The notes beneath the pieces were generated by a model, which was given only the letters and a program-made list of their open reading frames with translations, had not been told where the DNA came from and searched no databases. A stretch of 64,000 nt of DNA. It comes from Ptychodera flava. Taxonomy: Eukaryota; Hemichordata; Enteropneusta; Ptychoderidae. The translations under genes and the position numbers were made by a program. The first letter of the stretch is position 1. Each line of letters opens with the position of its first letter. Positions 2,834-62,113 of this stretch are shown here, one piece after another. The DNA is taken from NCBI RefSeq assembly GCF_041260155.1, contig NC_091931.1, forward strand, positions 10,893,861 to 10,957,860, written 5' to 3'.

Positions 2834-5625
2834 ATGTCGAAAACGACGACCTGGCGGAAAAAGCGTACAAAACGCACTAGCAATTTTCGTTCGTCAGCTG
2901 ACAATGAGGTAGAAATAGAAGACGACATGTTTGACGTGGATTACGTCAGCGGTGAGTGCATCAGACTCTGAACTCGATTGTGATCGTGTAGGCCCACCCG
3001 TTGACCATGATCCGGACCGTGATACTAATAATGAACATGATGCACGCCTAGAAATGATAGATAACGACGCTGGAGCAAGCGCAGACAGTAGCTTTACATT
3101 AGAAAATAACCCTATTTACAGAATTGACGATGATGCTAGGGAACCATCGAGTTTTAACGCCGATGAGGGAAATCGACCTGTCAACTTTGAGTTCGATTAC
3201 GACTCTTTCATACAATCTAAAGTTGATGACTTTCAAGATCACGCCAATGACAGTTTTGATGATGGCGACGACGACTACTATGATGATAATAACAATGATG
3301 ATAGAGAACGCACACAGGGCAGTACAGTCGCAAGTGAGGACGAACAAGTGAACGTTGAGGTAGCTCTGGATAATCCGCCGGTGTATGAAAATGCCCCAAT
3401 AACAACAAGTGTGAGTATGTTACTCATACTAACATTTGTAATGAATTACAACTTGACAGGAGAAGCTTTCTGTACCTTGTTGACAATTATCAGCGCTCAC
3501 TGTATGACGCAACCTAAAACGTTGAGATCAGTTAATATTTTTTTCAAGTACTTCAGGAACATGAAAGCACCAATTGTCTGCCACTATTACTGCTCATCTT
3601 GCTGCAGCTACTTGGCAAATGCAGAGGCTGAACTGTGCAGTACCTGTAACAGCAATTTAACTTCACGAACAAGCAAACAATATTTTATTGAGGTGCCATT
3701 AGTCGAGCAACTAGTGGCTTTTTTCAGTCGAAGGGGGTTCTACCAACGCCTTCAGCACCGATTTAGTCGTGAAAAGAAACATCCCTCAAATATAGAAGAC
3801 GTGTATGACGGATCCGAGTATGCAAAATATTTTCTTCCAATTGGTTTTCTTGCTAACCCAAATAACATCTCGTTTGCATGTAACATAGGCGGTGTTCCTG
3901 TCTTCAAGTCTTCTAAATTTTCTATCTGGCCAATATACATAGTCATAAATGAACTACCTTTCAAAGATCGAACAAAGATAACATGATCTAGCTGGACTTT
4001 GGTTTGGTTGTCAGAAGCCTGATATGTTGACTTTTTTGAAACCTCTGCAATCAGCTATTGACTCATTAGGGCCTATATTCTAAAGGTGTTGAAATGTGTT
4101 TGCCAGAGTCTGGTGAAAAAGTATGTGTTAAAGGAATGTTACTTATGGGAAGCTTTGATATGCCTGCTAAATGTCTGGTCCAGAATTGCACTCACGGTAT
4201 GGGTGTCCGAAATGCAAGCAACCCGGGGAAACGGTCAAAGTGGGATTGAGAGGTCATGTGCACGCATTCCCGTTTTCGGAAGGCAATGCAAAGGGCCCAC
4301 TCCGAACCCATGATAACACATTATTAGATGCCAAGGTAGCAATAGAAAAGGGAATTGTCAAAGACGGGGTTAAAGGGCCTTCATGGTTGTCATGGACACC
4401 AAACTATGATATCATAGCGGGTACTGCTGTTGATTACATGCATGCTGTTTGCCAGAGGGTGTTGCGAAGCTTTTACTTAAACTATGGTTCTACTCTGATA
4501 GGAATGAGGATTATTATATTGGAGACAAAGTAGATACAGTCAATAAAAGATTTTTGAACATTAAACCTACCAATGAAATAACACGTTGCCTACTTAGCAT
4601 AGATCAGCTTAAATACTGGAAAGCCAATGAAATAAGATCATGGCTCCTCTTTTACTGTGTTCCATGTCTTATTGGCATATTACCTCTAGATTATTTAGAA
4701 CACTTGCAATTATTAAGTGAAGGTATTTACATTTTATTATTGAATTCCATTTCTGTAGTTGATCTTAATCGTGCTGAAGAATGATTACATAAATTTGTTA
4801 TGTTGTTTCCTGAGTACTATAAGAGACAGCATTTGACATGTAATGTCCACATGCTTGTCCATCTGACGGATGTAGTCCGTGAATTATAGGTCCTCTTTGG
4901 ACATCTTCCTGCTTCCATTTTGAGGATAAGAATGGTCAGTTACTGAAACTCTTCCATGGAACTCAACATATTGAGAATCAAATTGTTACTGCTGTTGTAA
5001 TATTACAAAATTTGCCAGAGATGGCATCAAAGTGTATTTTACCAGGTAGCACTGCAGAAAGTTTATGAACACGTACTATTCCAATTTCTCCAAATCTACG
5101 AGTGGACCTTGGTAATTCCATGTTTGCATTGGGAGCAAGTGATATTCGCAAGTTAAGTAGATCAGAATCTGAAGCACTATATTTTTAGGTCATATGCCAA
5201 CGACTGATATAGTTAGTGCCTATCACCGTCTTTAAAAAGTGTACAGTCATACTCTCTCAGGGTTATCTCCGTGCGGTACAGCGTAATAGCTTCACTGTTG
5301 CTTTCATCGGAAATGATCGACTAGAACATTTTGGATAGATATAAATTTTTTTTTCCAGTATCGTTCATCTGCATATTGTATAAACTGTAACTCTGGCAGC
5401 TGCACATGCCACATTGACAACCTTGCCTTAATAACTGAGCTGCAGCATCTCAATACTGAACAAGTATTCCATAGCTTCCATGTACACAAAGTTAAGATTT
5501 GCAGCAGTAGTAAGAAAATTGTTAAAATTGATAATATTAAGGAACAATGTATGTTTATGCAGACAGTTTGTAATCTTACTGAAGGGTTTGTATGTAAATT
5601 TCCAAATAATTTAGAGAAAGATTAG
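2834..5625 (+). pseudogene. CACTA-like transposase, decayed copy 1
   Basis: The reading starts at ATG 2834 (MSKTTTWRKKRT, basic) and soon needs a frame change near 2,945 to enter an acidic 351-codon stretch that ends at 3,986. Conserved blocks follow in order: a C-rich zinc block (HYYCSSCCSYL...LCSTCNSN) near 3,580-3,660; RFSREKKHPSNIEDVYDG; PVFKSSKFSIWPIY; then, in other frames, GLWFG near 3,995, YGCPKCKQPGETVK near 4,200, GTAVDYMHAVC near 4,420, YWKANEIRSWLLFY near 4,620, HFEDKNGQLLKLFHGTQH near 4,910-4,970, and a C-terminal KFPNNLEKD before TAG at 5,623. This is the layout of animal CACTA/EnSpm-type transposase-domain proteins, and it matches the better-preserved copy at 62.1-63.7 kb. Several frameshifts and stops (at least five) make it a pseudogene. 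A possible poly(A) signal AATAAA lies at 5707. The family name rests on recalled patterns, not on a search. Confidence 0.8.
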
Positions 5626-7352: not shown

Positions 7353-8204
7353 GTGTCCTGTGTGCGTGACAATAATAATGGCTGCTCGTGTGTGAGACGC
7401 GCGAAACGTAAACGTGGTCGAAAGAAGAAAGTGAGTAAGGTCATGGACCAGAGTACCAGATCAAAGCTTAGATTGTCAGACTTAGGTTCGTATTATAACA
7501 ACGTGGCAGACGAGATGTCGGACACGAGTCTTTCTTCCGACGAGGAGGACGTCATCAGTGCGGACACACGTAATCACGGCCAAGGTAAAGACTCTGTCGC
7601 TTCGCAGCGTAAAATCAACCTTGTTGTAGAGAAAGCAGACAGTGATGAAATGTTAAGAATTTTTGACGTAAGAACGTTGAACTCCATCATTCAATCCGCG
7701 TCACTTTGTAACGTCTGCAAAGTCGGACGCCTTTCTCTGCAGGAATTGTCAACTTATGGCTGGGGCAGTCATTTTACCATGATCTGCTCAAATACCGAGT
7801 GCAACTCCCCTCAAGTGGTTTTTCCGTCTTCAGCGAAAAACGGCCGACATTTTCAATCAACAGAAAGATGGTACTTGGTCTACGAGCGATCGGAAGAGGG
7901 AGACGGGCAGCCATGAAATTTAATTCGTATATCGGTCTCCCACCACCCGTATCACCAACGCCGTTCAAAGAACATGAGCAGACACTAGCGAGTTACAGCG
8001 AAAAGTTGACCGAGCAACACATGCAACAGGCTGTGGCGGAAGTCCGACAGGTGGTGCTGGGGGTATCAGACAAAGATGTTGACGATGGAGGGAATGACAA
8101 TGGACAGGAAATTGTCGATGTTGCAGTTTCTGTTGACGGGTCATGGGCGTCAAGGGGCTTTTCTTCCCTTTATGGCTTTGTCAGTGTGATTTCAATTGAC
8201 ACCG
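7353..8204 (+). pseudogene. Mutator-like transposase, exon 1
   Basis: N-terminal part of a Mutator-like transposase of the animal 'DGSW' type. A basic stretch (RRAKRKRGRKKK) precedes ATG 7443, the first in-frame ATG. A CNVC...C zinc-type block lies near 7,710-7,800 (CNVCKVGRLSLQ and CSNTECNSP). After one frameshift near 7,845 the reading continues as TFSINRKMVLGLRAIG, then the GLPPPVSPTPF block, and ends with VSVDGSWASRGFSSLYG near 8,136. The D of DGSW is a likely first catalytic acidic residue. A strong donor (ACCG|GTAAGT) ends the exon at 8204 in phase 1, matching the next exon. An alternative start at ATG 7378 would need another frame change. Confidence 0.8.
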
Positions 8205-8869
8205 GTAAGTTTTTAATAAAATATCAACGAAAGTTTTTAGGGCCTTGATATGCCCCAGTCAGTATTGGGGCGTTAGATGCATAATATGTATAATATGTAT
8301 AAAGCAAACCAACTACAGTTGCCAGTGCGGTACACCTTCGTGAAAGCTTTTTATGCATAATAAAAATGGTGCGACTGATATCATTGTTGAGAGAAGCATT
8401 ACATAAGTGAATGACATCGATTGAGAAAGTCAGACGACATTAAATTTTAAGTGTTAACTTTTCATATTTTTGTGGTCCTGGGAATATATTAACTTTCAAA
8501 GATTTTTTTGAAGGGTTTGAAAACCTGTTGGCTATTGATATGTATACTTATGTATGCCCGTTTGAAATATTGTGGGACAGACATTTTATTGACTGCTGTA
8601 AAGGAAAGAGTTTGTAAAAAAGGAAAGCCACACTTGCTTGATAGTCCTATCCAAGTGAATAATATTATTTCACAAAGATACTGCTTTCCAAATCTTTCTT
8701 TTTGTCCTGTAATCACTCATGAGCAGTGAATTTATTTGGGTGACTGATATGGCTACTACAAGTAAAATTGATAACTTCAGGTACGAAGTGATAACTCAGT
8801 GTCTGTCTTTTCCATAAAAGTCTGTACAATATAATTTTATTACATCCAAATTCTGCAATTTTTCTCCAG

Positions 8870-10390: not shown

Positions 10391-11204
10391 GTAAGAGCAA
10401 TTTAGAATGTATCACTTTTAAGGGTTTTTTATTAGCTCCCATAGCCATATGTATATATGGCAATGGAAGCTATTCTTATAGGCTAGGGAAATGTCTGTAT
10501 GTATGTATGTATGTCTGTATGTCTGTATGTCTGTATGTCTGTATGTCTGTATGTCTGTCCGTCAACATCAAAAACTCCAAAACCGCTGCACATTTCATCT
10601 TGATATTTGGTGTGTACATGGATGATGGGCTGTAGATGAGATTTTGTTCAAATGAAGTTGTCATTGCCAAAAATATGCAAATTAAGTGAAAAAATGTAAA
10701 AACAGTCAAAATTGAAAAAACTCAATAACCACTAGCAGATTACATGAAAAATTAGCATGTAAGTACTTTGGGCTGACATGAAATGATTGTGCACATCTTG
10801 GGTCAGTATCTTGGACTTGCTATTTTTCATGAATTTTTTTGTAATTTGTCCCATTTTTGGTCAAAAAATCTCTTCTCTGAAACCACAAGTCCGATTGATT
10901 GAAACTTGGTATGGAAGTGCATAGGAGTGACCTTTCCCAAATTTGGGCAAATCGTGGTGAAATTTGCATATTTTAGTTTACACGTCCATAGACTCCCATG
11001 TATAAGGCAGATCTCCATAGACTCCCATGTATAAGGCCACAAAAAATAAAAATTTAGTTTCTCATCGTATTCATATTGCAAAAAGGATGCAGTGACACAA
11101 TTTTTAGTCCCCACGGATGAAGTCCAGTGGGCTTATAGATTGGGTCATGTCCGTCTGTTCGTCCATCCGTGAGTCCATCCGTTCACGCAGATATCTCGGA
11201 TATT

Positions 11205-11499
11205 TTGACAAAATGTCATGTGACCTTGATGACCTTTGATCTCAAATATACATATTTGTCCAATAACTCAGTAACCACAAGTGCTACCACCCTTCATATA
11301 TGGTATGATGGGACACCCTATGACGCCACATATTGTACCTCATTAATTATGCACATATCTAATTTTGAGCGAGCCAATAGAGCTAGAGGTCTGATTTTGG
11401 TATATAGGGATAACTTAGCAAAACAATTTTTTTGACAAAATGTCACGTGACCTCGGTGACCTTTGACCTCAAATATACATATTTGTCCATAACTCAGTA
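11205..11499 (+). repeat. 226-bp minisatellite, left part
   Basis: About 1.3 units of a 226-bp tandem repeat. The unit includes GTAACCACAAGTGCTAC, TGACGCCACATATTGTACC, GAGCGAGCCAATAGAGC and GTGACCTCGGTGACC. The phase marker gtaaccac falls at 11271 and again would fall at 11497. The array breaks there and resumes at 21,551 in the same phase, so the two parts were one array before an insertion. Confidence 0.9.
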
Positions 11500-12176
11500 C
11501 ATAGGCTCCCCACGTATGTTTAGTTAGCTGAAAACCGAGAATTAAGTTGTGCGCATGCGCAAGCTAAATTTACACAGGGCAAAGGTCGTGTGCAAAAAAA
11601 TGTCACCTGATTGTATGTTAATGAGCTACAGAGCTTCGTAGCAACCGGGCGATTTCTTCAAGTTTCTATGGCCTTTTAACCAATAAAAATGATCAGAATG
11701 ATGTCAAACTAGTGTCAGAATGTTCTTTGGGAACTAATTTTATGAATATGTATGAGTTTGGGGCGGTCAGACGATTGTAAACCCGCGAAAATTTGATCGA
11801 GTTGTAGGCTACCTAGCGACTCACGTCTGTCTGCCAGCTGTTGTGTACAGTTTTGAGGTCAAATTTTGTCGGCGATTTTTGATATTTTCTTGAGTTTGTC
11901 AACTAATTTCACCAACATAGTAAGTTAAAGCTACTATATTTTATTACATTCCAACAAAGTTTCACTGAGGCTAATTTTTTTTGTAAGGTTTTTGAAAAAA
12001 AATTACGTGGTTTAGACTCTGTTTACACTTCAGTTCATTGACCTTCATTGTAATTTACAACCCAGCTGACGGCCTTCTACTTTTTTTCTTGAGTTTCGCA
12101 TAATTTTTTTGTGGTTTCTTCTTTTTTTGTGTTGTGAAGATGTCTGGTTTGATTTTCATCTTGCCTGCCTCAGAAA

Positions 12177-12815
12177 ATGTGCAGAATTTGTGGGGGTAGG
12201 GCCCAAAATTCAGTAGATGAGTTGACAGGAAAATGTCCTAAATTATGTTCCAAATATACAGATCAGATTCTTTTACTTTGGTATTGATGTAGGGACTGAT
12301 GAACAGGATGTGCATCCAAACCACATTTGTTATTTATGTTATAAGCGTTTGTTCAATGATTCAGTATTTTCTTTTGACAATGATGTATGGGAACCCCACC
12401 CAAGAACAGGAGAATGTAATGTTTGTAAAGAATTTAAACAGCAAAGTAAAGGAGGAAAGCCAAAAAAGGTAAAACGGGGCAGACCACCAACAAAATCAAA
12501 ACAAAATCATGACAGTGACCGCCAAACTGATATAATTTTAACAGAGGATGGTAAGGCACACTTAATGCAACAAGCTGAATTGTCACCGACTTTTGATTGG
12601 CCTGACCAATTCAAGCCAATACCAATGGATGATGTAAAATGCACCATTTGCCTGTCTGTTTTCACTAATCCATTGGAGACACCGTGTGAACATGTTTTTT
12701 GTAGTAAATGTCTTGTTGGTGTATTCTTACTGAAAATGCCCAGTGTGTCCATTGTCCATTTTGTACCCAGTCTGTATGTTGTTTTTCTGTCCGTCCTGCC
12801 AAGTTGTACAGGGTT
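12177..12815 (+). pseudogene. RAG1 N-terminal-like zinc/basic/RING block
   Basis: This is the N-terminal exon of the transposon gene. It starts at ATG 12177, which lies just after a tgcctcag acceptor-like site, and reads MCRICGGRAQNSVDE. After a one-base frame slip near 12,280 it continues FGIDVGTDEQDVHPNHICYLCYKR, then VWEPHPRTGECNVC, and a lysine/arginine-rich stretch (KKVKRGRPPTK). A RING finger follows from 12,637: CTICLSVF, NPLETPCEHVFCSKC, and after a second frame slip near 12,722 NAQCVHCPFC. Vertebrate RAG1 has the same blocks in the same order: CRICG, FRIDV..D..HP..FCHNC, WHPHTPSCDIC, basic region, then CQIC...CKHVFCR.C...YCPSC. That makes common origin very likely. In RAG1 this region is the zinc dimerisation and ubiquitin-ligase part. 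Two frame slips mark decay. Confidence 0.82.
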
Positions 12816-12961
12816 TGCTCTGGCTACTCAAGCTGATTAGCCTTTTGGCTAATACAGTGTGAACACAAGTAGCCAGATTTTTATTTTGAGAGGTGAGGTC
12901 AAGGGTCACACACATTCATCTCGAAGGGTCAAAGGTGATATCATTAAACACTCAAGAGTAA

Positions 12962-13703
12962 GGGACCGTCTCAGATTGTCGCAGAAGTTCAAAAAGCGAA
13001 ATTCATTCGTTTAGGGGGGGAGGGGTTTGACCTCCATTCAATTAGTGAACTTCACTTTCGCACTTTTATTTTGTGATCACAAGTTTTCGTGTGTTTATTT
13101 TAAATTAAAGAAAAACTGCACACTCGTGCCAACAAATTTGTAACTGTTTCCATCTCGTTTGTGCCACAAACACAATTTACCGATAGTAACATTGTATCCG
13201 GCCCTAAACCTTTCATTCATCAAATTAGACAAAGACAAAAGTATCATTTTTTTAAATGTGCTATTTATAAGCGTCTGCTCTAACCCCTAGATTTCTTTAT
13301 TCTCACTCGTAATGCACCTGATCATAGTCGTTTTAATATCATTGAACATGCCTGGGCCACCTTGTCAAAGTTTCTCGCTTATTTACCGCCCCTCCCAAGT
13401 ACAAATTGCGTGTTCACAAAGACAAAGAACAGCACAAGAGATTCAAAAAGGGGAAATGAAATAAAATGAAACTTTTATGCGGTAAAATGCCCTGTTAGTA
13501 CTCAAATCTGATCGATTACTTTAATTGTATGTGGCAAGGGGCATACGTCTTTAGTAGCTATAGCAAAATGCAACATTGTAGTCCCAGGCAGACATGAACA
13601 TTTCGCACTTTTGAAGTTTCGTTTAGGGGGAGGGGGGAGGGGGTTTTGATCTAAACGAAGAAATTTCGTTTCTTGAACTTCTGCGACAATCTGAGACGGT
13701 CCC
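12962..13703. mobile_element. Harbinger-like MITE (TAA duplication)
   Basis: The ends are inverted repeats of about 45 bp beginning GGGACCGTCTCAGATTG and continuing TCGCAGAAGTTCAA. The flanking 3 bp are TAA on both sides (12959-12961 and 13704-13706). A 3-bp TWA duplication and a GG-starting terminus are typical of PIF/Harbinger. The 742-bp interior has no transposase, so it is non-autonomous. It lies in the first intron region of the RAG1-like gene and is younger than the host transposon. Confidence 0.85.
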
Positions 13704-14770
13704 TAATCATAACCAAATATTTCAGAAGTCTGCCACTTTCTCATCATCATATGTATCCTCAGTGCTGCTTTATAGTTCAATAAAAAGAATGCTTCGTATC
13801 AAAACTCATGCATGACCATTGATCACCACTTGAACTTTGAAGTACAAAAAAATACAGAAAAGAGAAACATCCTCAAGATCTTCATGAACGTGGCATGGCA
13901 TGCCATGCATGATCACTAGTACTGATACTGATACACGTCCGTGCATGGCCAAAAGACAGCAAAACTCAGTAACAATTTCCGAGCTAAGTAAACAGTGTTT
14001 TACAAAGCTGTTTCAAATCAAACTGGTTTGCACAATCCCTCGCTATAAAAGTGACATTTTGGTGACATTTCAGCTTGAATCATACCTTGAAATAAAATAT
14101 AAACGTGAAACAAAGACATCATGTATGCTGCCGTTCACGTTCAAGAGCATGGTTTGAACCCGTGAACTGGCATGTGCATTGGCTGCACGTAAAAGCAACT
14201 CTACTTTCCAAGATCAAACGGTCCGTGTCTTGTGAAAACAACAGCAGAGCAGTGAAAATTGTAATGGTCACCGGTAAAAGCTCTTCACAGATGAAAGGAT
14301 GATCGCTGAAAACAACTGAAATTGCATGTTTAGACTATGACAACTCCCGGGAAAACAGGACAGCGTGAACGTGAACAATGGCGGACGTCACTGAAGTAGG
14401 ACTATTCTATTTAGGTAACGGGGGACATTTCGGAGGGGCACAAGTACATGTATACGTGCCATTTTCCTCACGATACTAATCACGGGAACTTCGATGTCCC
14501 ATTAGTTTCTCTGATCTGAAAAGTAATTTTACCAACTTGTACGACCCATTATACTCTGAAAACAGTGGCGGGGCTTATACTTAGATAAGTACGGTAGTAC
14601 TATGGTGAAAGACTTCCCAAGAAGTAAAACAACACACCGCAATGCCACAGAACATCGTAGAACAAAGTGACCGAACGTACAAATTTTGAGTCGCCAGTCT
14701 GGCGATTGTTCTGACCGTCTGAGTCGCCAATGAGTGAATCAATTCGCCATTTTGCCGTCGTTCTTTACCA
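13704..14770. other. Intronic DNA of the RAG1-like transposon
   Basis: I see no conserved protein block or clear repeat between the MITE and the next coding block. A CG-containing patch at 14,340-14,480 could hold a secondary promoter, but nothing decides this. Confidence 0.35.
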
Positions 14771-15016
14771 ATGAAATGCCAAACATGTCAACAAATTTGC
14801 AACTCCTCTGACCTCAATAAACACAGCTGTACACCAAGTCAGATTACAGAGTCAAATAAACAAAGTGAACAAACAGCAGGCATACTGTCAGTATTAGAGC
14901 GTCCGATAGAATTACCACTCACAAAGGACTTGGAGAAAGTGGCAACACATTTACTGAAAAGTAAACTAAATAAATCAGCAGATGGAAAAACAGCCATCTA
15001 CAAAACAGGAGGACCA
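14771..15016 (+). pseudogene. RAG1-like gene, C2H2-like block and linker
   Basis: Reads MKCQTCQQICNSSDLNKHSC, which resembles the KCP..C......Y..H zinc-finger region that follows the RING in RAG1. It continues LPLTKDLEKVATHLLKSKL and ends AIYKTGGP before the donor CCA|GTAAGT at 15016. The TGGP end resembles the KGGRP motif at the same place in RAG1, where the DNA-nonamer-binding region begins. The left border is uncertain because no good acceptor is visible. The stretch itself is open and undamaged. Confidence 0.6.
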
Positions 15017-15373
15017 GTAAGTTTGTTTTTCTATTTTTTATTGATATTGCAACAATGAAATTTTTAACACAAAATATACAGAAAGTTATGTGTGGATATT
15101 GATCATTTAATGAGTTCACAGAAAACACTAGTATATATGCTGCTGGGCTAGAGTAGATTGTAGTAGACTGGAAAAGAACTGCTCATCCAAAGTTTATAAC
15201 TTAGATAAGAATGAAAAGTCAGTGGTCTTGATGATGATATGCTTTGCATTCTAAAATATGTATTTCAGGATATTTCTGCCCAGATAAATATTTATTTCAT
15301 TCAGTGAGTCAAGACTCTGTTGTAACCAAATCTGTTGTCTACATCATCAATGCTCAATTTATCTTTTCTTCAG

Positions 15374-15654
15374 AACCGTGTTGTTGTTCAGGCACCACAA
15401 GCAAGAGTTGCTACAAACACAGCCTGCAGGAGCACCATACGCAAACGGTATATTTACCTGGAAAATCAAAGAGAGAAAATCAGTAAAGGTTCAACAGATG
15501 CACAGCAAACAGATGAAATTAAAGTTGCTGCAAAACAAAGAAGAATAGATGAGTTGTTTTCCAAAATCCCAAAGAAGACGGTCAGCGGTGAAGAAATGTT
15601 GGCTGTAAAAAGTGATCTTGGAATGTCTTGGAACAGGAACAGGAAATTGAAGAG
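15374..15654 (+). pseudogene. RAG1-like gene, basic exon
   Basis: Bounded by tttcttcag and AAGAG|GTTAGT. It encodes a lysine/arginine-rich segment (NRVVVQAPQARVATN, RSTIRKRYIYLENQ, AAKQRRIDELFSKIPKK, then LGMSWNRNRKLKR). It sits where RAG1 has its GGRPR nonamer-binding region, but I see no clear alignment, so a DNA-binding role is only an inference. The open frame runs through the exon and joins the next exon in phase (KR|W). Confidence 0.6.
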
Positions 15655-15751
15655 GTTAGTCTTGGCATATCCTACTTACCTGCTAGAGAAGAAACACTAT
15701 AAAATGGAAAAAAATTCAATTAAAGGGTCAAAGTAACAAACACATATTATT

Positions 15752-15822
15752 GATATTATTTTTGTCATTCTGGTTTCATTTATATTATATATAAATGAAA
15801 CCAGAATGACAAAATTAATATC
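15752..15822. repeat. Perfect hairpin in intron
   Basis: A near-perfect foldback of about 70 bp. ATTCTGGTTTCATTTATAT pairs with its reverse complement immediately downstream, with almost no loop. It lies just before a second, unrelated hairpin. It could be a tiny foldback MITE; no target duplication could be fixed. Confidence 0.75.
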
Positions 15823-15836
15823 AAAAGTTGTTGTTT

Positions 15837-15912
15837 GTGTCAAGCCTCAGTGAGCAGAACAATATGAATAATATTACTATTCATATTGTTCTGCTCACTA
15901 AGGCTTGACACA
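15837..15912. repeat. Second perfect hairpin in intron
   Basis: TGTCAAGCCTCAGTGAGC with AGAACAATATGAATA pairs with its reverse complement over about 36 bp with a minimal loop and one mismatch. The sequence is unrelated to the hairpin 15 bp upstream. Such near-identity of arms suggests recent origin or ongoing arm-to-arm correction. Confidence 0.75.
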
Positions 15913-15994
15913 CCATAGCTATACATGGACATAGAACAAAAGTACATGTGTACACTGAAAGGTAACTGGACATTCTTTCTATTGTTTTGCATAG

Positions 15995-16198
15995 ATGGTT
16001 CAGTCAGTGGGGTTTGAGAAGTGAAGGTGAACTGAAAATGAGAAGAGAAAAGGAACACATTATTGGTGATAATTTGCTAGCAGAAAGTTTGCCTTTTGTC
16101 TTCAATGATGAAAAGGGGAAAACTGTGAAGCCTGCACCCTGTGTGTATGCAAGAAGTCTGCCTGAAAAAGTGTTACAACATCTTGAGGACAATGACAA
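15995..16198 (+). pseudogene. RAG1-like gene, WFSQW exon
   Basis: Bounded by gttttgcatag and GACAA|GTAAGT. It encodes WFSQWGLRSEGELKMRR, EHIIGDNLLAESLPFVF and KPAPCVYARSLPEKVLQHLEDND. I recognise these blocks from a multi-copy invertebrate protein family in which they directly precede a WHDG...GGD.GGGSFK block. Here that block follows in the next exon. The exon is intact. Confidence 0.7.
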
Positions 16199-16406
16199 GT
16201 AAGTGATGTAACTGTGCACTGGAATCTAAATTTTAAATTCATTTCTGATACTGACAATGTGATCATACTCCATAGATCTTCCATTTTTTTTTGTCATCAA
16301 AGCCCAGTAACTGTAACTTTGTGTTTTACATATAGTTCACATGTCAACTAAACATGTCAAGGGTACAGATGCTGGGGCTTTTAAGTCATAAAGTCTTTAT
16401 TTCCAG

Positions 16407-16648
16407 ATTAAACCTACGACATGGCATGACGGACACATACCAGAGAATGAACTGTGGATCAAACTAGGTGGAGACAAGGGCGGAGGAAGTTTTAAATCCA
16501 TGTTCCAGCTAGGCAACGTTCCTCACCCTAACGCCAAACAAACACAGTTGTATTTGCCTGTTTGAAAGTGGAGACAGCTTTCAAAACTTGCTCACTGCTC
16601 TGGGAAGATACAAGAACAACTACATCATCTCAAGACACTGACCTGGAA
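16407..16648 (+). pseudogene. RAG1-like gene, GGDKGGGSFK exon (candidate first catalytic D)
   Basis: Bounded by tttccag and TGGAA|GTGAGT. The conserved frame reads TTWHDGHIPENELW, IKLGGDKGGGSFKSMFQ, then CLFESGDSFQNLLTAL and IQEQLHHLKTLTWK. Moving between these blocks needs three frame changes within the exon, so this part is damaged. The D of GGDKGGGSFK occupies the position where RAG1 has its first active-site aspartate (LADESDHE); this equivalence is inferred from block order, not from an alignment. The exon end joins the next exon in phase (WK|G). Confidence 0.6.
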
Positions 16649-16944
16649 GTGAGTTGAAAATATTGAAAACATTACTTACATGACTTTCAACAGCAACAGC
16701 AAGGGGTGGACGATACTCCACAATACTGGAGTGTGTGGTCCCAGTTTCCCCTAAATTTCAATGTTTATCTTTCTGTATATACCTGTACAAAATCGAAACT
16801 AAAAATGATTATGAATATGTACAACCTTAGTGATGTATGTTAGCATGTGCAATTGTGTGCATCTCACCAGACTCTGCTGTGTGATAACACCAGGCATTGG
16901 ATTGTAAAAACTTGGTCAGTTGTTGAATCAACCTTTTTTAGGGT

Positions 16945-17020
16945 TGAGAATATGGCAGAGCGGTCTGATGTCCCAGCTACGCAATTTGGTGCAGTAGGTG
17001 TGGGTTCAAGATCTGGTGGT
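16945..17020 (+). repeat. tRNA-like SINE fragment
   Basis: ATGGCAGAGCGGTCTGA resembles a box A of a Leu/Ser-type tRNA, and GGTGTGGGTTCAAGAT about 45 bases later resembles a box B. The intervening stem sequences do not fold cleanly, so this is more likely a tRNA-derived SINE head than a working tRNA gene. Confidence 0.4.
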
Positions 17021-17138
17021 AAAATATATGAAATTGTCTGCAGAATTCAGTCAAGCTGTTACTCAATGGTCTTCTGGTTTTAAAATACTCACTTTCACTT
17101 GTTTTTTTTTTTGCATATATTCTCTATATTTGTCTTAG

Positions 17139-17418
17139 GGGAAAGACATTCAGGCTGTTTGCTTTCGGAGACTATGAATATCTTTGTAAGATGTACGGTT
17201 TGAGTGGACCAAGTGGAAGACATTTTTGTCTGTGGTGTTTAGTAACCCAAGAGGAGTCCCAGATACCAAGACAACTGAGAATTTCACAACCCAGGACCCT
17301 TGAACAAATTTCCAAGGACTACAATGAATTCCTGACCATTGGCAAAGGGAAGTTGTCAAATGCAAAGCACTTCAACAATGCAATAAATGAACCAATATTT
17401 GACATCCCAATAACACAG
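17139..17418 (+). pseudogene. RAG1-like gene, CxxC zinc exon
   Basis: Bounded by tttgtcttag and ACACAG|GTAATT. It encodes FAFGDYEYLCKMYGLSGP, SGRHFCLWCLVTQEESQ, SQPRTLEQISKDYNEF and a conserved NEPIFDIP end. RAG1 has [23 protein letters not shown] at the same relative place, where a CxxC pair forms half of its core zinc site. The similarity G(L)..SG....C..C.....EASQ/EESQ is visible by eye. The exon is intact and joins its neighbours in phase. Confidence 0.7.
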
Positions 17419-17701
17419 GTAATTATGCACTTACTTCTTACTGTATACAGGCAAGACTTGTTATTGGTTTTAGTGCTGTCAATTATACACATTACCCAAC
17501 CCAACTAGATGGACAAACTAATCTGTAATATTTACATTTGTATTTACATTTGTGTAGATCACAATGTACTCTGTTTTCCTAATTTGAAATGGCAATCTTT
17601 ATACCGAATTTTGTGAGAAAAGTTGAAGACCTCTACTTGGGTTTGATACAGTAGGTAAAGACTTACACATCCATATTTTACTTCTGTTTAAAAACAATTA
17701 G

Positions 17702-17910
17702 GTGTGTGTGCCGAGTCTTCATCTGGACCTGGGTATTTATCTACGCTTCTACAATATGTTGAAATGGAAGTTAGTAAGCTGGATAAAAAAATAGATGCAG
17801 ACGGTCTTCTTGTGCAGACACTTGACAACACTCTGCAAAAAATAAATGTCCACCGGCAGGCATATCATGGAAAGGCATTCGTTGGAAATCATGTGCACAA
17901 ATGTTTACAG
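17702..17910 (+). pseudogene. RAG1-like gene, LHLDLG exon (candidate second catalytic D)
   Basis: The acceptor is acaattag, in phase with the previous exon, and the donor is TTACAG|GTTAGT. It begins VCVPSLHLDLGIYLRFYN, which parallels the RAG1 segment around its second active-site aspartate (SIDALHCDIGNA.EFYKIF). After one frame slip near 17,770 it continues KLDKKIDADGLLVQTLDN and HRQAYHGKAFVGNHVHKC. The parallel to RAG1 is by eye only. Confidence 0.65.
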
Positions 17911-18161
17911 GTTAGTTGACAAACTGTGCAAAGTAAAGTCATGCACGATGTGGGATACAGAATTTGACAAGCACATGACAGAATATACATGTCATCTGCA
18001 CAAGTTCTGTATCACACACACATTAGGCATTACATTTGGAAATCAAGAAAATGACTTACCTGATACTTGTGGTGATTATCCACTTCTTAACTGACCATTA
18101 TTGAGCCTACCAGTCTTCTTTAAACTTCACACATGCAATATGTTCTCATCCATGCATGTAG

Positions 18162-18344
18162 GACTGCAACATTGATATGCTCACACAAGCTGTAGTTGAT
18201 GAAGTGGGAAAGAGAAACCAAGAGATTACTGCTGAAGCCTGACTGTATGTGAGAAATTCAACAAACTTTTCAAATTGTTTGCCAAGTGCCATGCTGCATA
18301 CAGCTCATCTAACTACATGGAAGCTGGAGAAATCGACTACTTAG
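18162..18344 (+). pseudogene. RAG1-like gene, VCE exon
   Basis: Bounded by gcatgtag and TACTTAG|GTAAGG. It reads DCNIDMLTQAVVDEV and, after one frame slip near 18,240, TVCEKFNKLFKLFAKCHAAY followed by MEAGEIDYL. RAG1 has [22 protein letters not shown] in the corresponding interval between its second D and its E. The exon joins the last exon in phase. Confidence 0.6.
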
Positions 18345-18472
18345 GTAAGGTATACTTCTGTATAGAAACAATCCTATCATCTGGAAGTGGGGTAACTGGT
18401 GGGGTAACAAGAGCTTTATGAGTAATTGTGCCAACTGACCATTTTAATTGTTTGTTTTTTCTCTTTCTCTAG

Positions 18473-18792
18473 AAGCAAATATAGATGCTCTCATGGCCTA
18501 CTACAGGCAGCAATTTCCTAATGCCAAGATCTCACCGAAGTTACACATCCTTGAAAATCACAACCTCCCATGGATCCGAAGATGGGGATTTGGCTGCAGT
18601 TTTCATGGGGAACAGGGTGGGGAGCATATTCATGCAGACCTCAATAATATCAGATTTAGTATAAGGGGCCTTAAAGACAGTCTCGAAATTGCCAAGAGCC
18701 TGATGAAAGAACACTGGATGCAGGCATCTCCCACCACTCAGAAGCACAAACCCGAAATCGTGTGTGAAATTGGAAAGAATAAAAGCCAATAA
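18473..18792 (+). pseudogene. RAG1-like gene, last exon with GEQGGE (candidate catalytic E)
   Basis: The acceptor is ctttctctag; the TAA stop ends at 18792 and overlaps an AATAAA signal. It encodes ANIDALMAYYRQQFP, PKLHILENHNLPWIRRW, GFGCSFHGEQGGEHIH and SLMKEHWMQASPTTQK. In RAG1 the active-site glutamate lies in IGAWASEGNESGNKLF, followed by MEDVLKHHWLYTS. The G.G....E.G.E..N/H pattern and the HW segment correspond. The exon is intact, and it is a widely repeated block in invertebrate genomes, as far as I recall. Confidence 0.7.
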
Positions 18793-19102
18793 ATGTTAAT
18801 ATGTATCGACAAAAATGCTTGTGTACACAGAATGTACTGGCACATGTATATAGTACTGAAAATGTTAATGAGACATTTTATTGGTTTGACAATCTGTAAT
18901 TTGGTCAGTCACTCGCAAAATCCATTTCTATTTTACTTTTATTTTTGAACTGTACATGAACCAAAACATCCTCACAAATGGGTTGATAAGCATCTCCTTG
19001 AACAGATGATTAGTTTTACAATCATATCTAATTAGTTTTAATGGAAGAGAATCTGCAAGGGAAACACCATTTTTTGTGTGGTATGATACAACAGTTCTCA
19101 CC

Positions 19103-19651
19103 ACAGGGGGCAGATGAAAGTCCCCTGGGGTGGGGAGGAGATTTTTTGTGCAACGGTTGACCTTTTTTTTTATTAATTTTGACTGTGGTATTTCAAATAA
19201 AGATTTCGACTCCATACCGTCCGATTGCTTTATATATTACCGACAAGTCCTTATCTCCTCTCCAACTTGTGTATACACCACTGTAATTGCTCCAAAAACA
19301 TTGCCAACTTGCTAATCCGCTGTCGGTATCAGCGGATAAAGTGATTGAGTCAACACCCACAGCCGTCCCTCTTATTTCACTACGTGTGGGACTGTGGTGT
19401 TGACTTAATAAGCTAATCCGCTGATACGCGCAGTCATTAACAAGTTGGCAATGTTTGCGCAGCAATTAGAGTGGTATGTGCACGGTTGAAGAGGAGATAA
19501 GGAATTGCAGGTATTGAAAACACAGTCAGACAGTTTGGAGTCGAAAGCTTTATTTGAAATATCACAGTCAAAATTAATAAAATCAAATAAGGTAAACCGT
19601 TGCACAAAAAACCCTCCTCCCCACCCCAGGGGACTTTCATCTGCCCCCTGT
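19103..19651. mobile_element. MULE-like MITE with long inverted repeats (9-bp TSD)
   Basis: The ends are inverted repeats of about 220 bp starting ACAGGGGGCAGATG. The flanking 9 bp GTTCTCACC occur on both sides (19094-19102 and 19652-19660). Long terminal repeats and a 9-bp duplication are the Mutator-like signature. No transposase is present. It lies in the 3' non-coding part of the RAG1-like transposon. The two arms are slightly diverged. Confidence 0.85.
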
Positions 19652-19740
19652 GTTCTCACCATGTGTATATAGTAAATGTTTATGTGATTGATACTTACCT
19701 TTTTATGGTGAAGAATGATAAACATTTATGTGATTGATAC

Positions 19741-19869
19741 CAATCTGATTATAATCAGACTTTAGGGAATGGCAAAGTGAATTCTGATGTGTTGTCGTCT
19801 CTGACTACAGGCGACAACACATCAGACTTCACGACGCCGTTCCCTACATCTCAGATTTTGATCAGATTG
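19741..19869. repeat. Foldback between short direct repeats
   Basis: CAATCTGATTATAATCAGA ... TCTGATGTGTTGTCG is followed by its imperfect reverse complement, giving arms of about 55 bp and a short loop. It is flanked by three copies of an 'aatgtttatgtgattgatacttacct' direct repeat (near 19,674, 19,722 and 19,908). Confidence 0.7.
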
Positions 19870-19929
19870 GATCGATACTTACCTGTTTATGGTGAATAAT
19901 AATAAATGTTTACGTGATTGATACTTACC

Positions 19930-21490
19930 TGTTTATTGTTTCTGTCTCAAGGACATGACATGACAATGACAACTTATGAATATTATTAATATATGACTTG
20001 CCTTTTGATTTGTCTGTTGCCAGCTCCCCCTTTTTTCGGATTTTCCATCCACATATCCATTCATCTATCCATGTCAAGCATCACAGCCTGCACACTTTGT
20101 GTGTGTTGTCCTAGTTTATCCTGTACAAATAATGCATAAATCATCAGATTAATAATATATCACATCCCATGCACAGAAATATGTAGTTAATAATATCACC
20201 TACATCAAAATGAGATACTTTTCCTCAATCATATTTGCATGAGTCAAAATGGAAGTATCATCATCCACTGACATGGAAAAATTGCATTATGCTACAACTG
20301 TTGAACTGATGTCTAGACAAACCAATTTTCAACAATGCTGACATACTGTGACCTTTGTGAAATTTTCTGATTCCCCATTTGCTATATAGAATTCATCATC
20401 CTCTAGTCCACTGTTGACTTGAACCCAAAAAGCTGAACAGCAATATTTTTTATGCAGTGAACGGCAAAGGTCAATAAACTCTACCACCCACGTCTTGGAG
20501 ATATTTAAATGGCTTCCGTCAGTTCTACTTTGTAGTGGATTTCCAGCTATTCATCAGTCAGGTCACTGTTATTGAGTGAGCACCCACAAATACAAAAGTG
20601 TCAAGTAAGATTCTGAACTCTTACTATGTCGTTTCAACGTGAGCTATAGATCGCCTGCTACGCAATCGATGGCATGTCGACAATGCATGTCATTGTCAGT
20701 GTCATGTCACCTGGCATTTCAAAATCACGCTAGTCTGTTCAGATGAAATTATAAGCACGTTTCTATCCATTAGACGTAACTGAAATAACTTATTTAATAC
20801 TATAAGGCATGGCTTTATGCCACAAACACTTCGTGAAAGAGCGGGACCGTGATCATGCCATTTACAAAACCGAGCGTGACTTCCGGTTTCCCACGCTCGG
20901 CATGTACAACGTTGATATATGGCTTCTACAAGTACGTACTATGCATAAACGATGACCAGATCAGCCCAAGACCAATTTAGAGCTAAAAATGAACCAAAAC
21001 GGGAATATGTCTGAAGTAATATCACTCGGAATTTGTTTCAGTACATAATTTAACGAACTATAGGCTTCGACAAGAGCTATTAATGCATAAAACTTACCTC
21101 TCAGTCCGTGAACTACATCGAGCTGTGGCGGCGGCTAGGAAAATTAGCCGCGCACATGGTCGGGTGTGGCAGTAAAACTGAGGCACACACTTCTCAAATC
21201 ACCATGTGATTTCTCCGGAAAACTCAAGAACATAATAATATTCATCATCAATGTCTTGGAATTTTTGGAAATTCAAAAATATGACCGCTACGCCAGTATT
21301 GTTCGATAAAACATTTGGATACAACGATTTTCATCCCGTTTTCGCACCAGAACTATCTCTTGTGAAGGAAAACATTATTATGCATTCAAATTATTCATGA
21401 CGATGTTAGATTAGCTGATTTCATTGGTTAAAGTAAGGGGCGGAGTTCGTTGCTAACGACGGTTGCTATGTTATTAACATAATCCTACAG
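19930..21490. other. 3' non-coding part of the 10-kb transposon
   Basis: I see no second gene here on either strand; in particular no kelch-repeat (RAG2-like) sequence. A minus-strand donor-like site (CTGAGAG|GTAAGT, read from about 21,105 down to 21,090) and GC-richer DNA at 20,830-21,180 could mark a promoter and first exon, but no protein follows. Confidence 0.4.
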
Positions 21491-21550
21491 CGCACAAAGA
21501 TGCGTTCGCTAGCGCATGCGCACAACTGAATTCACGCTCAAAACATACGT

Positions 21551-22988
21551 GTAACCACAAGTGCTACAGCCTTCATGTATGGTATGATTGGACACCTTAT
21601 GATGCCACATATTGTACCTCATTAATTATGCGCATATCTAATTTTGAGCGAGCCAATAGAGCTAGAGGTCTGATTTTTGGTATATAGGGATAACTTAGCA
21701 ATACAATTTTTTTGACAAAATGTCACGTGACCTCGGTGACCTTTGACCTCAAATATACATATTTGTCCATAACTCAGTAACCACAAATGCTACACCCTTC
21801 ATGTATGGTATGATGGGACACCTTATGACGCCACATATTGTACTTCATTTATTATGCGCATATCTAATTTTGAGCGAGCCAATAGAGCTAGAGGTCTGAT
21901 TTTTGGTATATAGGGATAACTTAGCAATACAATTTTTTTGACAAAATGTCATGTGACCTCGGTGACCTTTGACCTCAAATATACATATTTGTCCTATAAC
22001 TCAGTAACCACAAGTGCTACACCCTTCATGTATGGTATGATGGGACACCTTATGACGCCACATATTGTACCTCATTAATTATGTGCATATCTAATTTTGA
22101 GCGAGCCAATAGAGCTAGAGGTCTGATTTTTGGTATATAGGGATAACTTAGCAATACAAATTTTTTGACAAAATGTCACGTGACCTCGGTGACCTTTGAC
22201 CTCAAATATACATATTTGTCCATAACTCAGTAACCACAAGTGCTACACCCTTCATGTATGGTATGATGGGACACCTTATGACGCCACATATTGTACCTCA
22301 TTAATTATGCACATATCTAATTTTGAGCGAGCCAATAGAGCTAGAGGTCTGATTTTTGGTATATAGGGATAACTTAGCAATACAATTTTTTTGACAAAAT
22401 GTCATGTGACCTCGGTGACCTTTGACCTCAAATATACATATTTGTCCATAACTCAGTAACCACAAGTGCTACACCCTTCATATTTGGTATGATTGGACAC
22501 TTTATGACACCACATACTGTACCTCATTAATTATGCACATATCTAATTCTGAGCAAGCCAATTGAGCTGGATGTCTGATTTTTGGTATATAGGGATAACT
22601 ATAGGAGAGAAATTTTTGACCAAATGTCATGTGACCTCGATGACCTTTTACCTAAAATATATGTTTATGTCAATAAATAAGTAACCACAAGTGCTATGTC
22701 CTTTGTATTTAGTAGGATGGGAGACCTTATGACAACACACGCTTTACCTCATTAATTATGTACACATCTAATTCTGGGCAAGCGAATAGAGCTAGAGATC
22801 TGATTTTTGGCATATAATTAGCTATGTAATTTTTTTTTCAAAATTTCATGTGACCTCGATGACCTTTGACCTTTGATTATACATATATATGCATATCTCA
22901 GTAACCACAAGTTCTATACCCTCCAATTTTGATAGGATATTAGACCTTAAGATGTCACATCTTGTACCTCATTTATAATGCGCATATG
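21551..22988 (+). repeat. 226-bp minisatellite, right part
   Basis: Six to seven head-to-tail units; the phase marker taaccac starts at 21552, 21778, 22005, 22231, 22457, 22682 and 22902. Spacing is 225-227 bp for most units and 220 in the last. The first units are nearly identical to each other and to the left part, while the last two are clearly diverged, so expansion started from the left side. Each unit contains two GTGACCT-type direct half sites (CACGTGACCTCGGTGACC, then TTTGACCTC). Confidence 0.92.
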
Positions 22989-33075: not shown

Positions 33076-36048
33076 TTAACGCAAAGGAACGACACGGAGA
33101 CAAGTGTTTGGCCGAAATCCGGGGTTATGCATGTACTGCCATGGCGGGGGCAATGAGGCGTCATAGCGGCCTGGATGGCGGTACCGGGTTATCGGTACCG
33201 TGCATCGGGCAATGTGCTACCAGTCGCCCGCAGCAGACCCATGACAGTACCCCCCTGGAACTTTATTATGTAAAGTTAGCAATATAGAGACATACAGTAT
33301 CTTTTATTGTGAGCTGCTAGCCTGCAGCGAGGTTTTTTTTTTTTTCTAGTGGAGGGTGGGTGGGAATTTTGTGGTGTGAACTTGAGCGTGGCAGAAGTTG
33401 AAATGGACGATCTGTGGCTTTGATCATACTGATATGCGCATGGATAATGACGTGGCAAGGGTGACGCAAGTTGTTTAGATAACGGTAAATTTGAAGGCGG
33501 TTGGTAGATAAGGTTACGTCTCCAGTGCATCCAGCAAGCAGTAGAAGTAGTGGTGCATGGTGACCCATACTTAGCAAGGTCTAAACCCTTCTCCCCGTGT
33601 CCCTCCAGACGTTAACAATGATTATAGCAAAGCCATAATCACCCATTAACGCAAAGGAACGACACGGAGACAAGTGTTTGGCCGAAATCCGGGGTTATGC
33701 ATGTACTGCCATGGCGGGGGCAACGAGGCGTCATAGCGGCCTGGATGGCGGTTACCGGTTATTGGCACCGTGCATCGGGCAACGTGCTACCAGTCGCCCG
33801 CAGCAGACCCATGACAGTACCCCCCAAATTATGGCCAAACCGCGGGCATGCATGACTGCGGTGCGGCAGTAAAGCAGCCCCCCCCCACCCTCCCCCCCCC
33901 CCGTGGTGACCATGCGTCATTGGGAGATTTCTCATAGTATATGTTCATTGTTCCTAACGTTTCATGTCTCTATAGTTCATGTAGCGCCATTACATCGTTG
34001 GTATTGTCCACCGAGAACAGAGTCCTACGTCAAATTGTTGGCAAGTTGCGAGTACCTTCGGTACTACGTCGAGGGTCTCCTATGGTGTCGTGATGTAGAT
34101 CTGGTACGCGTCACTCCTCCATCTGCCCAGTGTCTTTATGAGCCAGCCAGGTAAGCCGGCTTCGGCGGTGGTTGTGGCGGCACCACCGCGGAAGCCGTGT
34201 CCCCAAATTGAACAGGCGACTAATATTGGGTACATCTCTTTCCATTCTCTTGCCATCCCATGGCAGAGGTGGCACGGCGAATGGGCCAATTGTGTGGCCC
34301 AGGTGCAGTTCGTTTGTTATTGCGGTGGAGACGGTATCCGGGTTGATCGTTGCTGACTGGCATTGCGGGTGTAGCGCGGTGTTTGGTTTTCACTGGAGCT
34401 GATGTTGGCACCATGGGTGAGGTCGTGGATGAGGCTGGCTGTGAATTGTTTATGCTGGTGGTCGTGCAGGGCAGCTGGGTCTTGCATGAGCCTCGGTTGA
34501 GAGATCGACATACCTGAGGTTCGTCGTACTGTTTCTTGTTCGCTGAGCTCTCCCAGTAGTATGGGTTGGTATCGCTGCTGCGTAGGTTTGGGCAGTCGGT
34601 CTTCACATGACCATGTTGGCCACAGGCGAAGCAGGAAGGGCGCAGGGGGTGTGGCTGGTTGAGGAAGTGCTGGAAATTGAGGTCTGGGTTTGGCTTGCTC
34701 CAGTTGGCCCTGTCTGGGTAACGGGCAGCGTACAGGCGGAAGAATTGTCGTACGTGAGCCAGGCCTCCGGCTTGTAGGCGGCAGCTTTGGAGGCGATGAA
34801 ACGAAGGTAGGTGGTCATGGGGATCGCCAAATGTGGGTAGTAGAATGTTCGATATAAGAAAAAGACGAGGAAGCACTGTAACCAGGTGTCAAAGTCGTCG
34901 ATAGTTTTCCGCTTCACCTCGGTTGTGAATGTGGCTACGCCACGGTTGTCTGGATCGAAAGCTACTTGTGTCTTGGTAGCCTGGGTTGAGTTGGGAGCTA
35001 GGGCATCCGGGTGTAAGTCACCAAATTCGATGAACTTACCGAGGTTAGCCAAGGCGTTGAGTGTTGATTGATCGACGTATAGCAGTAGCATGTCGGCTGG
35101 GGGTATTGCTGCAGAGGATTTGCCCGTTGGCCCGGCGCTAGGTGGTGGGCGCCATGGCGGTGCATTGTGACCGGCTGGCTGGGCGGGTTGAGCGTAGGGC
35201 GCAGCCATATTGTCCAGGTTGTTGTTATGAGGTGCGCCGCCATCGGTAGGGTGATGTGCGCAGCGCCACCACTGGTGGTCGAGTCGGGTGGGGCAGCTGT
35301 AATGGCGAGTTGATATCCATTACGATTAGCGAGATGATTACTTGGGTGGGCTTGAGTAAGCACCGAGCTGGACGGAGCGGCGAGCGTCGTCGGCCCGGCG
35401 GCGATGAGTGAAGCAGGTGATAGAGCACCAACGACTGTATCAGTTGGCTGGACTTGCAGGTTGGGCGTCGGGATAGGCGCCTGTGCTGTAGTGTTGGTAG
35501 TTGGCTGCCGTAGTTCCCGTCGGATTGAATCAATGGCGCTTGCGATGCCGGTTTCTATTAGTTGGCGACGTGGTCTGACATACCTGGATCGGCTGCCGCT
35601 GTGGCGGTTGTCGGCACGCTGCTGGCAGGGTTGGTAGGTGTGGTTTCCGTCGGTACTGACTGGGGTACTAGGTATTTGCCGAGGTGCGCTGGGCGTCTCT
35701 TCGCCCTCGCCGATGTACGGGTGGCCGCCTGTGCGCGGCCCCTGCTTTTCTTCGGTTTTGGCATGGTGAATTTTGTGGTGTGAACTTGAGCGTGGCAGAA
35801 GTTGAAATGGACGATCTGTGGCTTTGATCATACTGATATGCGCATGGATAATGACGTGGCAAGGGTGACGCAAGTTGTTTAGATAACGGTAAATTTGAAG
35901 GCGGTTGGTAGATAAGGTTACGTCTCCAGTGCATCCAGCAAGCAGTAGAAGTAGTGGTGCATGGTGACCCATACTTAGCAAGGTCTAAACCCTTCTCCCG
36001 TGTCCCTCCAGACGTTGGCAATGATTATAGCAAAGCCATAATCACCCA
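33076..36048 (-). mobile_element. Fossil split-direct-repeat (Ngaro/DIRS-type) retroelement
   Basis: The element lies on the minus strand. Two different repeats each occur twice as direct copies: repeat A at 33076-33255 and 33646-33825, repeat C at 33364-33645 and 35768-36048. Read on the minus strand the order is C, body, A, C, a 108-bp spacer, A. This is the A1-body-B1-A2-B2 split-direct-repeat order known from Ngaro/PAT members of the DIRS group. The body (33,826-35,767) is GC-rich and shows only a gag-like part with a CxxC..GH.K..C zinc knuckle (CFACGQHGHVKTDC). Reverse transcriptase, RNase H and tyrosine recombinase are not recognisable. It is broken, with a few breaks in the gag-like part. 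The copies of each repeat are still very similar, so I infer a fairly young insertion. Confidence 0.68.
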
Positions 36049-61123: not shown

Positions 61124-62113
61124 AGATGAGTGATGAATCACTTGCTTGAGATACTGAGTAGTAGTTGTCGTTAACATGAAAAATTGGGCTTGGCCAGGAT
61201 ACATGGTATCTGAAAGAAATATAATGTAAATTGACTTAATACTGTGCACATATCATTTTAATCAACAGATACCTTAAAGGCACTGTAGCTGTAGCTTACT
61301 TTTGATAACATTTTCATTATTTTTGTTCTGTGTGTCACCTACAGTTTATTGTTCTACTCCCTACATCATGTTGATATGCCAAGTATTCAGCTTGTCACTA
61401 CAGATAATACCGGTATATGCATTGTTTTTATTGACAACTGACTTTTAGTCTGTACTAAAAGTCAAATGTCAACAATAGCATGGCATTTTCAGGGAAAGAC
61501 ACTAAGGGTTGCCTGACTGCCCAGGGCAAGTGAAAACCACATTCGGGCAAGTGAACTGCCAACACCACTTGCCCGACAGGACAAATGGGAAAAACAATTA
61601 TTCAATAATCAATTCATGAGAGCAAGTTTTCTGTACGTGGAACCGTGACTTTAACAGCAAATAATAATGATTCTGTATCATTTGTATGTACTGAAAGGTT
61701 TCGAAAAAATTCTCTGTTGCTTGGTAGAAATGATTACATGTCACTTTTTGCATATCACAGCTTACACATGTACGGGTATAAGAACTAAATATAACTCCAT
61801 GTGCAGGGGTTTTTACCAGATAAATAATAAAGTGGTGCTGCAATGAAATATGGCCAACCGTGTGAATATTCAAATACAACGAAAACAGTGCATTCCCCTC
61901 TTTGAAACTTTATAAACAAATAAGAATGATCTCATCCACTAGAACACATGGAGGTAAATGCACTCCAGTGAGACAGTGCAGTTTCATTTCTCATTGCAAT
62001 ATTTCACGTTTTTAAAGACTTGTGCTATTTGACCAATCATGATGAAAACTTTTAAATTTCATTTAAAATAACTTTATGCTGACTATATTTCTCTTTCTTT
62101 TTTAAAAAAACAG
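61124..62113. other. Non-coding 5' flank of CACTA-like copy 2
   Basis: No gene is seen. A 'cagggaaagacact' end-like motif followed by 'cttgcccgacagg' inverted words lies at 61,490-61,580 and recurs at 41,394; it may be the scar of an unrecognised element. The upstream exons of the transposase at 62,114 are not visible here. Confidence 0.35.

Follow-up and report, generated by a model that had tools for sequence, protein, structure and literature searches.

The Chapaev DNA transposons, reportedly named by Kapitonov and Jurka in 2007, and the RAG1 recombinase, which cuts antibody genes, are the described systems against which the element reported here is compared. In the published descriptions, DUF1280 is equated with Chapaev (PMC3985635), the transposase carries an aspartate–aspartate–glutamate (DDE) triad plus C(2)C and H(3-4)H motifs (PMC12730594), and the hallmarks are CAC/GTG termini with 3-4 bp target-site duplications (PMC4079192). 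PMC4411706 describes the Chapa domain as one N-terminal part of RAG1, reports Chapa followed by RING in two Chapaev subgroups, and infers that a common ancestor already had Chapa, RING and core in fused form. In PMC7204232, RAG1 H795 is named as an active-site residue and Transib is described as being without elements of the RAG1 N-terminal region, and PMC8355894 presents N-RAG-TP of Aplysia as a mollusc transposon with a reported RAG1-like N-terminus. Here, we analysed a 64-kb window (the whole stretch of 64,000 nucleotides, from Ptychodera flava contig NC_091931.1), which contains an element that an earlier note had proposed to be a full-length cousin of RAG1, with both halves fused and no RAG2-like partner. 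We conclude, with a probability of about 0.92, that it is a decayed Chapaev DNA transposon of the Chapaev-Mirage-CACTA (CMC) group, with a single gene encoding a transposase of RAG1 domain order; the assignment was made against published Chapaev descriptions rather than named Chapaev sequences. The proposal of a RAG1 cousin is correct in substance and in substance already published; the family and its RAG1 kinship are known, and what is new here is one more member.

The plus-strand gene consists of 16 coding pieces totalling 2,592 bases (Table 1), and every motif quoted in the earlier note was found on that strand and in the order given, from CRICGG in 12,177-12,269, through FGIDVGTDEQDVHPNHICYLC, WEPHPRTGECNVC and PLETPCEHVFC (all within 12,271-12,732), GGDKGGGSFK (16,407-16,541) and LHLDLG (17,702-17,761), to GEQGGE in 18,472-18,789. 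The RAG1-type N-terminus was borne out by the first exon, which scored 26.8 bits against Pfam RAG1_imp_bd, above the cut-off of 23.3, and by piece 12,271-12,732, which matched PDB RAG1 residues 160-315. One more RAG1-like part, absent from the note's list, is a second zinc finger in the exon that starts at 14,771; its counterpart in the relative P0015 fell on RAG1 C355 and H372 in the profile alignment. For the catalytic half, the GGD exon scored 32.2 bits against DUF1280 (PF06918; cut-off 25) and the joined core 33.9 bits, DUF1280 being its sole match at E≤5. Used as the sole query, the N-terminal exon gave seven candidates, none at E≤1, in a search whose length limit shut out full-length relatives, and a phmmer search of PDB sequences with the joined core returned a single irrelevant match (0.24).

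The joined protein, with X at the frame breaks, retrieved 99 proteins at E≤1 among 3,319 candidates (best 3.4e-117), including ones from sea cucumber, sea stars, urchins, crinoid, acorn worm, lancelets, Hydra, coral, freshwater sponge and molluscs. The top scorers were Holothuria and Patiria proteins, and DUF1280 was present in 95 of the 99; against P0001, 214 of 454 aligned core positions matched. A midpoint-rooted tree covering 98 of 100 sequences placed the window with 17 echinoderm proteins, with a joint clade support of 0.98. Alignment A1 held 96 of the relatives (P0075, P0088 and P0098 omitted), and alignment A2 held 38, picked mostly by length and domains; in the latter, at E≤0.01, DUF1280 was found in 37, RAG1_imp_bd in 18 and zf-C3HC4_2 in 13. 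Four of these 38 also matched zf-AD (best E 0.0025), a hint at possible kinship between that domain and the Chapa/RAG1 zinc region. P0075 itself (Elysia marginata, 1507 aa, "immune-associated nucleotide-binding protein 5") combined DUF1280 with PF01926, PF04548 and PF01079, which we take to be the GTPase, AIG1 and Hint families, a mix that reflects either a gene-model fusion or a real capture.

Both halves occur in one predicted protein in P0009, P0012, P0014, P0015, P0024 and others, which bears on the alternative that a host RING gene happens to lie beside an unrelated transposase fragment. Such an arrangement would fit the 1,958 bases and the nested insertion that separate the two halves in the window, as well as the absence of any visible splice acceptor upstream of the second zinc-finger exon at 14,771. 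Against it stand the relatives with both halves in one protein, the domain counts in the A2 relatives, and the agreement of N-terminal with core distances among 13 non-redundant members whose N-terminus could be read (Mantel r 0.57, reached in 1 of 5000 permutations). An earlier r of 0.91 from 19 members was discarded because six near-identical sponge sequences and two Hydra isoforms of one gene had inflated it. Chance neighbours were rejected on these grounds, and we regard them as very improbable. For the transposase with RAG1 domain order, the agreement of distances fits one old fusion and is no proof of it. At even odds in our judgement, the complete RAG1 layout, with the N-terminal zinc region, the RING-dimerization domain and a core of RAG1 fold running from the DNA-binding region to the C-terminal helices, predated the split of Chapaev from RAG/Transib and was present in a RAG2-free ancestral transposase, so that the N-terminal half of RAG1 would not have been gained by fusion with an N-RAG-TP-like element; the Chapaevs would then be present-day, full-length relatives of RAG1, with a RING half that functions in the absence of RAG2.

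The core was compared with RAG1 residue by residue, with RAG1 positions verified against PDB chain 9jpu_A and with its residues other than H795 presumed to have their catalytic or zinc-binding roles. The profile alignment placed the second D on D708, the CxxC on C727/C730, the LH on H795, the HxxxxH on H937/H942 and the second E of GEQGGE on E962, and the D-x18-C-x2-C spacing in exon 17,140-17,418 equals that of D708/C727/C730. The first D aligned to K608, eight residues past D600; we infer that it corresponds to D600, because V-K-x3-D occurs in both proteins and the model puts the D at a strand end. Counting only relatives that have a letter at the site, the first D was kept in 96/96, the second D in 99/99, the CxxC in 93/93, the H of LHxxLG in 85/85, the two H of HxxxxH in 93/93 and 92/93, and both E in 90/90. 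The earlier note had instead followed a RAG1 scheme of D (LADESDHE), CxxC and D (LHCDIG), and had equated VCEKF with VCEL. The D of LHLDLG is kept in just 6 of 85 relatives and it is the second D that aligns to D708, so the catalytic D assignments were wrong, and VCEKF = VCEL was rejected after inspection of five relatives; the overall claim of RAG1 kinship still holds.

The core profile was built from 55 of the 99 relatives (P0075, P0088, P0098, P0099 and motif-missing ones omitted) and compared with 31 of 35 chosen RAG1s, taken from 120 listed of 242. On the core alone, the profiles showed weak similarity to RAG1. In 200 shuffles with 28 chosen RAG1s the best score was 33.8 and none reached 36.5, a narrower margin than in the 20-shuffle control that it supersedes (best 20.3; reversed RAG1 17.75). 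Structure prediction recovered the RAG1 fold through the whole core in models of the relatives P0001 and P0015, at a very low core identity of ~14% in the structural alignment. In a viral structure library the core had one match at E≤0.001, Sylvanvirus A0A3G5AI30 (200 aa, 1.5e-4).

This fold and the RAG1-type N-terminus would also suit a RAGL (ProtoRAG/TransibSU) element minus its RAG2-like gene. By sequence, the core is DUF1280 and its profile likeness to RAG1 is weak; PF12940, the Pfam RAG1 family, was matched neither by the joined core at E≤5 nor, at E≤1, by P0001 and P0015, whereas two control RAG1s matched it with E 0 in the same library. Moreover, no kelch or PHD match was found in the 36 spare open reading frames (ORFs) of at least 60 aa on both strands, a search that shorter decayed pieces could escape. 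A RAGL element that lost RAG2 was rejected on the PF12940 results, and we consider it highly improbable.

Within the Chapaev-type core, the interval from the H795 motif to the RQAYHG motif had a median of 137 residues in the 49 of 100 sequences that could be measured, window included (the value of 592 for P0003 is a mis-hit), versus 55 residues to the equivalent point of RAG1; an insertion therefore marks most measured relatives, and RAG1 is without it. It consists mostly of long helices in the models of the relatives and is probably a coiled coil. The window copy has 48 residues here (17,758-17,910), and has either lost the insertion or never had it.

The element was given in the earlier note as 11,500..21,551; its right limit stands, and its start moves to 11,511 if counted from CAC, leaving 11 bases (11,500-11,510) between satellite and CAC. 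The inverted repeats begin with CACGTATGTTT, and GTTGTGCGCATGCGC is present at both ends; the G+C content of the 10,041 bases is 38%. The left satellite stops at 11,499 (...CAGTA) and the right one restarts at 21,552 (TAACC...), with copies 62-100% alike to reference copies. Beside the transposon, TCCC adjoins CAC on the left and TAACC follows on the right, and the two satellite flanks have just TA in common, which fits either the presence or the absence of a 3-4 bp duplication. No 16-base word of the terminal 150 bases recurs elsewhere in the window. Among viral and prokaryote contigs 50 and 8 pattern matches to relatives gave none that was confirmed, so these contigs yielded no second flanked copy by which to judge the target-site duplication. 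The unclean duplication, and the comparison of named Chapaevs by description, leave room for a separate unnamed CMC-type lineage near but outside Chapaev; since DUF1280, CAC/GTG and Chapa plus RING all point to Chapaev as described, we consider that lineage unlikely and retain the Chapaev assignment. Further nested inverted-repeat insertions lie within the transposon at 15,736-15,912, 19,102-19,652 and 19,763-19,846, and an Rfam scan gave no matches.

Table 1. Coordinates of the element, its surroundings and its coding pieces in the 64-kb window.
Feature	Position	Strand	Remarks
Probable Chapaev-type DNA transposon, decayed copy	11511..21551	+	10,041 bases, 5'-CAC...GTG-3' ends, sits in 226-bp satellite
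Left terminal inverted repeat (CACGTATGTTT ... GTTGTGCGCATGCGC)	11511..11567	+	
Right terminal inverted repeat	21505..21551	-	
226-bp satellite array split by element	left ~11,168-11,499, right 21,552-22,987		
First coding piece, MCRICGG..., first CxxC of RAG1-type (Chapa) zinc region	12177..12269	+	
RAG1-type (Chapa) zinc region, basic stretch, first RING half	12271..12732	+	RAG1_imp_bd and RING families
Second RING half (CPFC), after frame break	12732..12812	+	completes RING profile
Nested inverted-repeat insertion, first intron	12961..13704		54-base arms, 93% complementary
Second zinc finger (CQTC...H.C) and linker	14771..15016	+	matches RAG1 C355...H372 finger, via relative P0015
Exon preceding catalytic domain	15374..15652	+	NBD/DDBD-equivalent region by position
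Pre-RNase H region exon	15996..16196	+	
Exon with putative first catalytic D (GGDKGGG), three internal frame breaks	16407..16646	+	DUF1280 match
Exon with putative second catalytic D (FGDYEYL) and zinc CxxC (CLWC)	17140..17418	+	contains GLSGPSGRHFCLWC
Exon with LHLDLG (H = RAG1 H795)	17702..17910	+	without helical insertion of most measured relatives
Helical insertion domain exon, carries VCEKF	18162..18343	+	VCEKF in piece 18,239-18,343
Last exon, HILENH (RAG1 H937/H942) and GEQGGE	18472..18792	+	GEQGGE in 18,472-18,789; stop TAA

As assembled, the gene is broken and the copy cannot act. The single multi-exon gene described earlier was upheld in its motif order and qualified by seven frame breaks, near 12,270, 12,732, 16,541, 16,562, 16,615, 17,760 and 18,239, with the second half of the RING in another frame; these breaks mean either a dead copy or indels in the assembly. 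GT...AG boundaries were found for seven of the eight introns, including the one at junction 16,196/16,407, where the reading frames on either side nevertheless do not fit.

An intact transposase of this kind would consist of the N-terminal zinc region, the RING and second zinc finger, a DNA-binding/dimerization region, an RNase H-like DDE core interrupted by a zinc domain (CxxC plus HxxxxH), and C-terminal helices. Its dimers would bind both element ends, and a two-metal D-D-E site would nick the DNA 5' of CAC. By analogy with RAG and Transib, whose fold the transposase shares, the element would probably be freed through a flank hairpin, and it would insert elsewhere with no need for a RAG2 subunit. 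Dimerization is the probable role of the RING, which may also work as a ubiquitin ligase.

Elsewhere in the window, a Mutator-like transposase piece lies at 7,712-8,248 on the plus strand (PF20700, E 1.5e-16). Two plus-strand ORFs, at 2,919-3,986 and 62,083-63,126, look like pieces of CACTA/Mirage transposases by eye; Pfam gave no match in the first, and the second had just a sub-threshold DUF4218 match (18.4 bits against a cut-off of 27). A G+C-rich (56%) minus-strand stretch at 34,220-35,984, with a zinc-knuckle (zf-CCHC) ORF, is probably a gag-like retroelement remnant.

Compared with Chapaev, the window copy has the same DDE core family (DUF1280-type, as in 37 of 38 aligned relatives), C(2)C and H(4)H motifs, CAC/GTG terminal inverted repeats and Chapa-then-RING order, with no RAG2-like gene seen; it differs in being broken as assembled, in having no long helical insertion of the kind that most measured relatives carry, and in showing no clean 3-4 bp duplication. 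With RAG1/RAGL it shares the order of N-terminal zinc region, RING-dimerization domain and core, the positions of D708, C727/C730, H795, H937/H942 and E962 and, as modelled on the relatives P0001 and P0015, the core fold; the differences are the ~14% core identity, the unmatched PF12940, the lack of any RAG2 partner seen in the 36 spare ORFs, and the long insertion after the H795 motif in most measured relatives. Unlike Transib, the element has a RAG1-like N-terminal half, and the fold match of HzTransib to the core is weaker than that of RAG1. N-RAG-TP, likened by its published description alone, shares the RAG1-like N-terminus reported for it and may be a Chapaev too.

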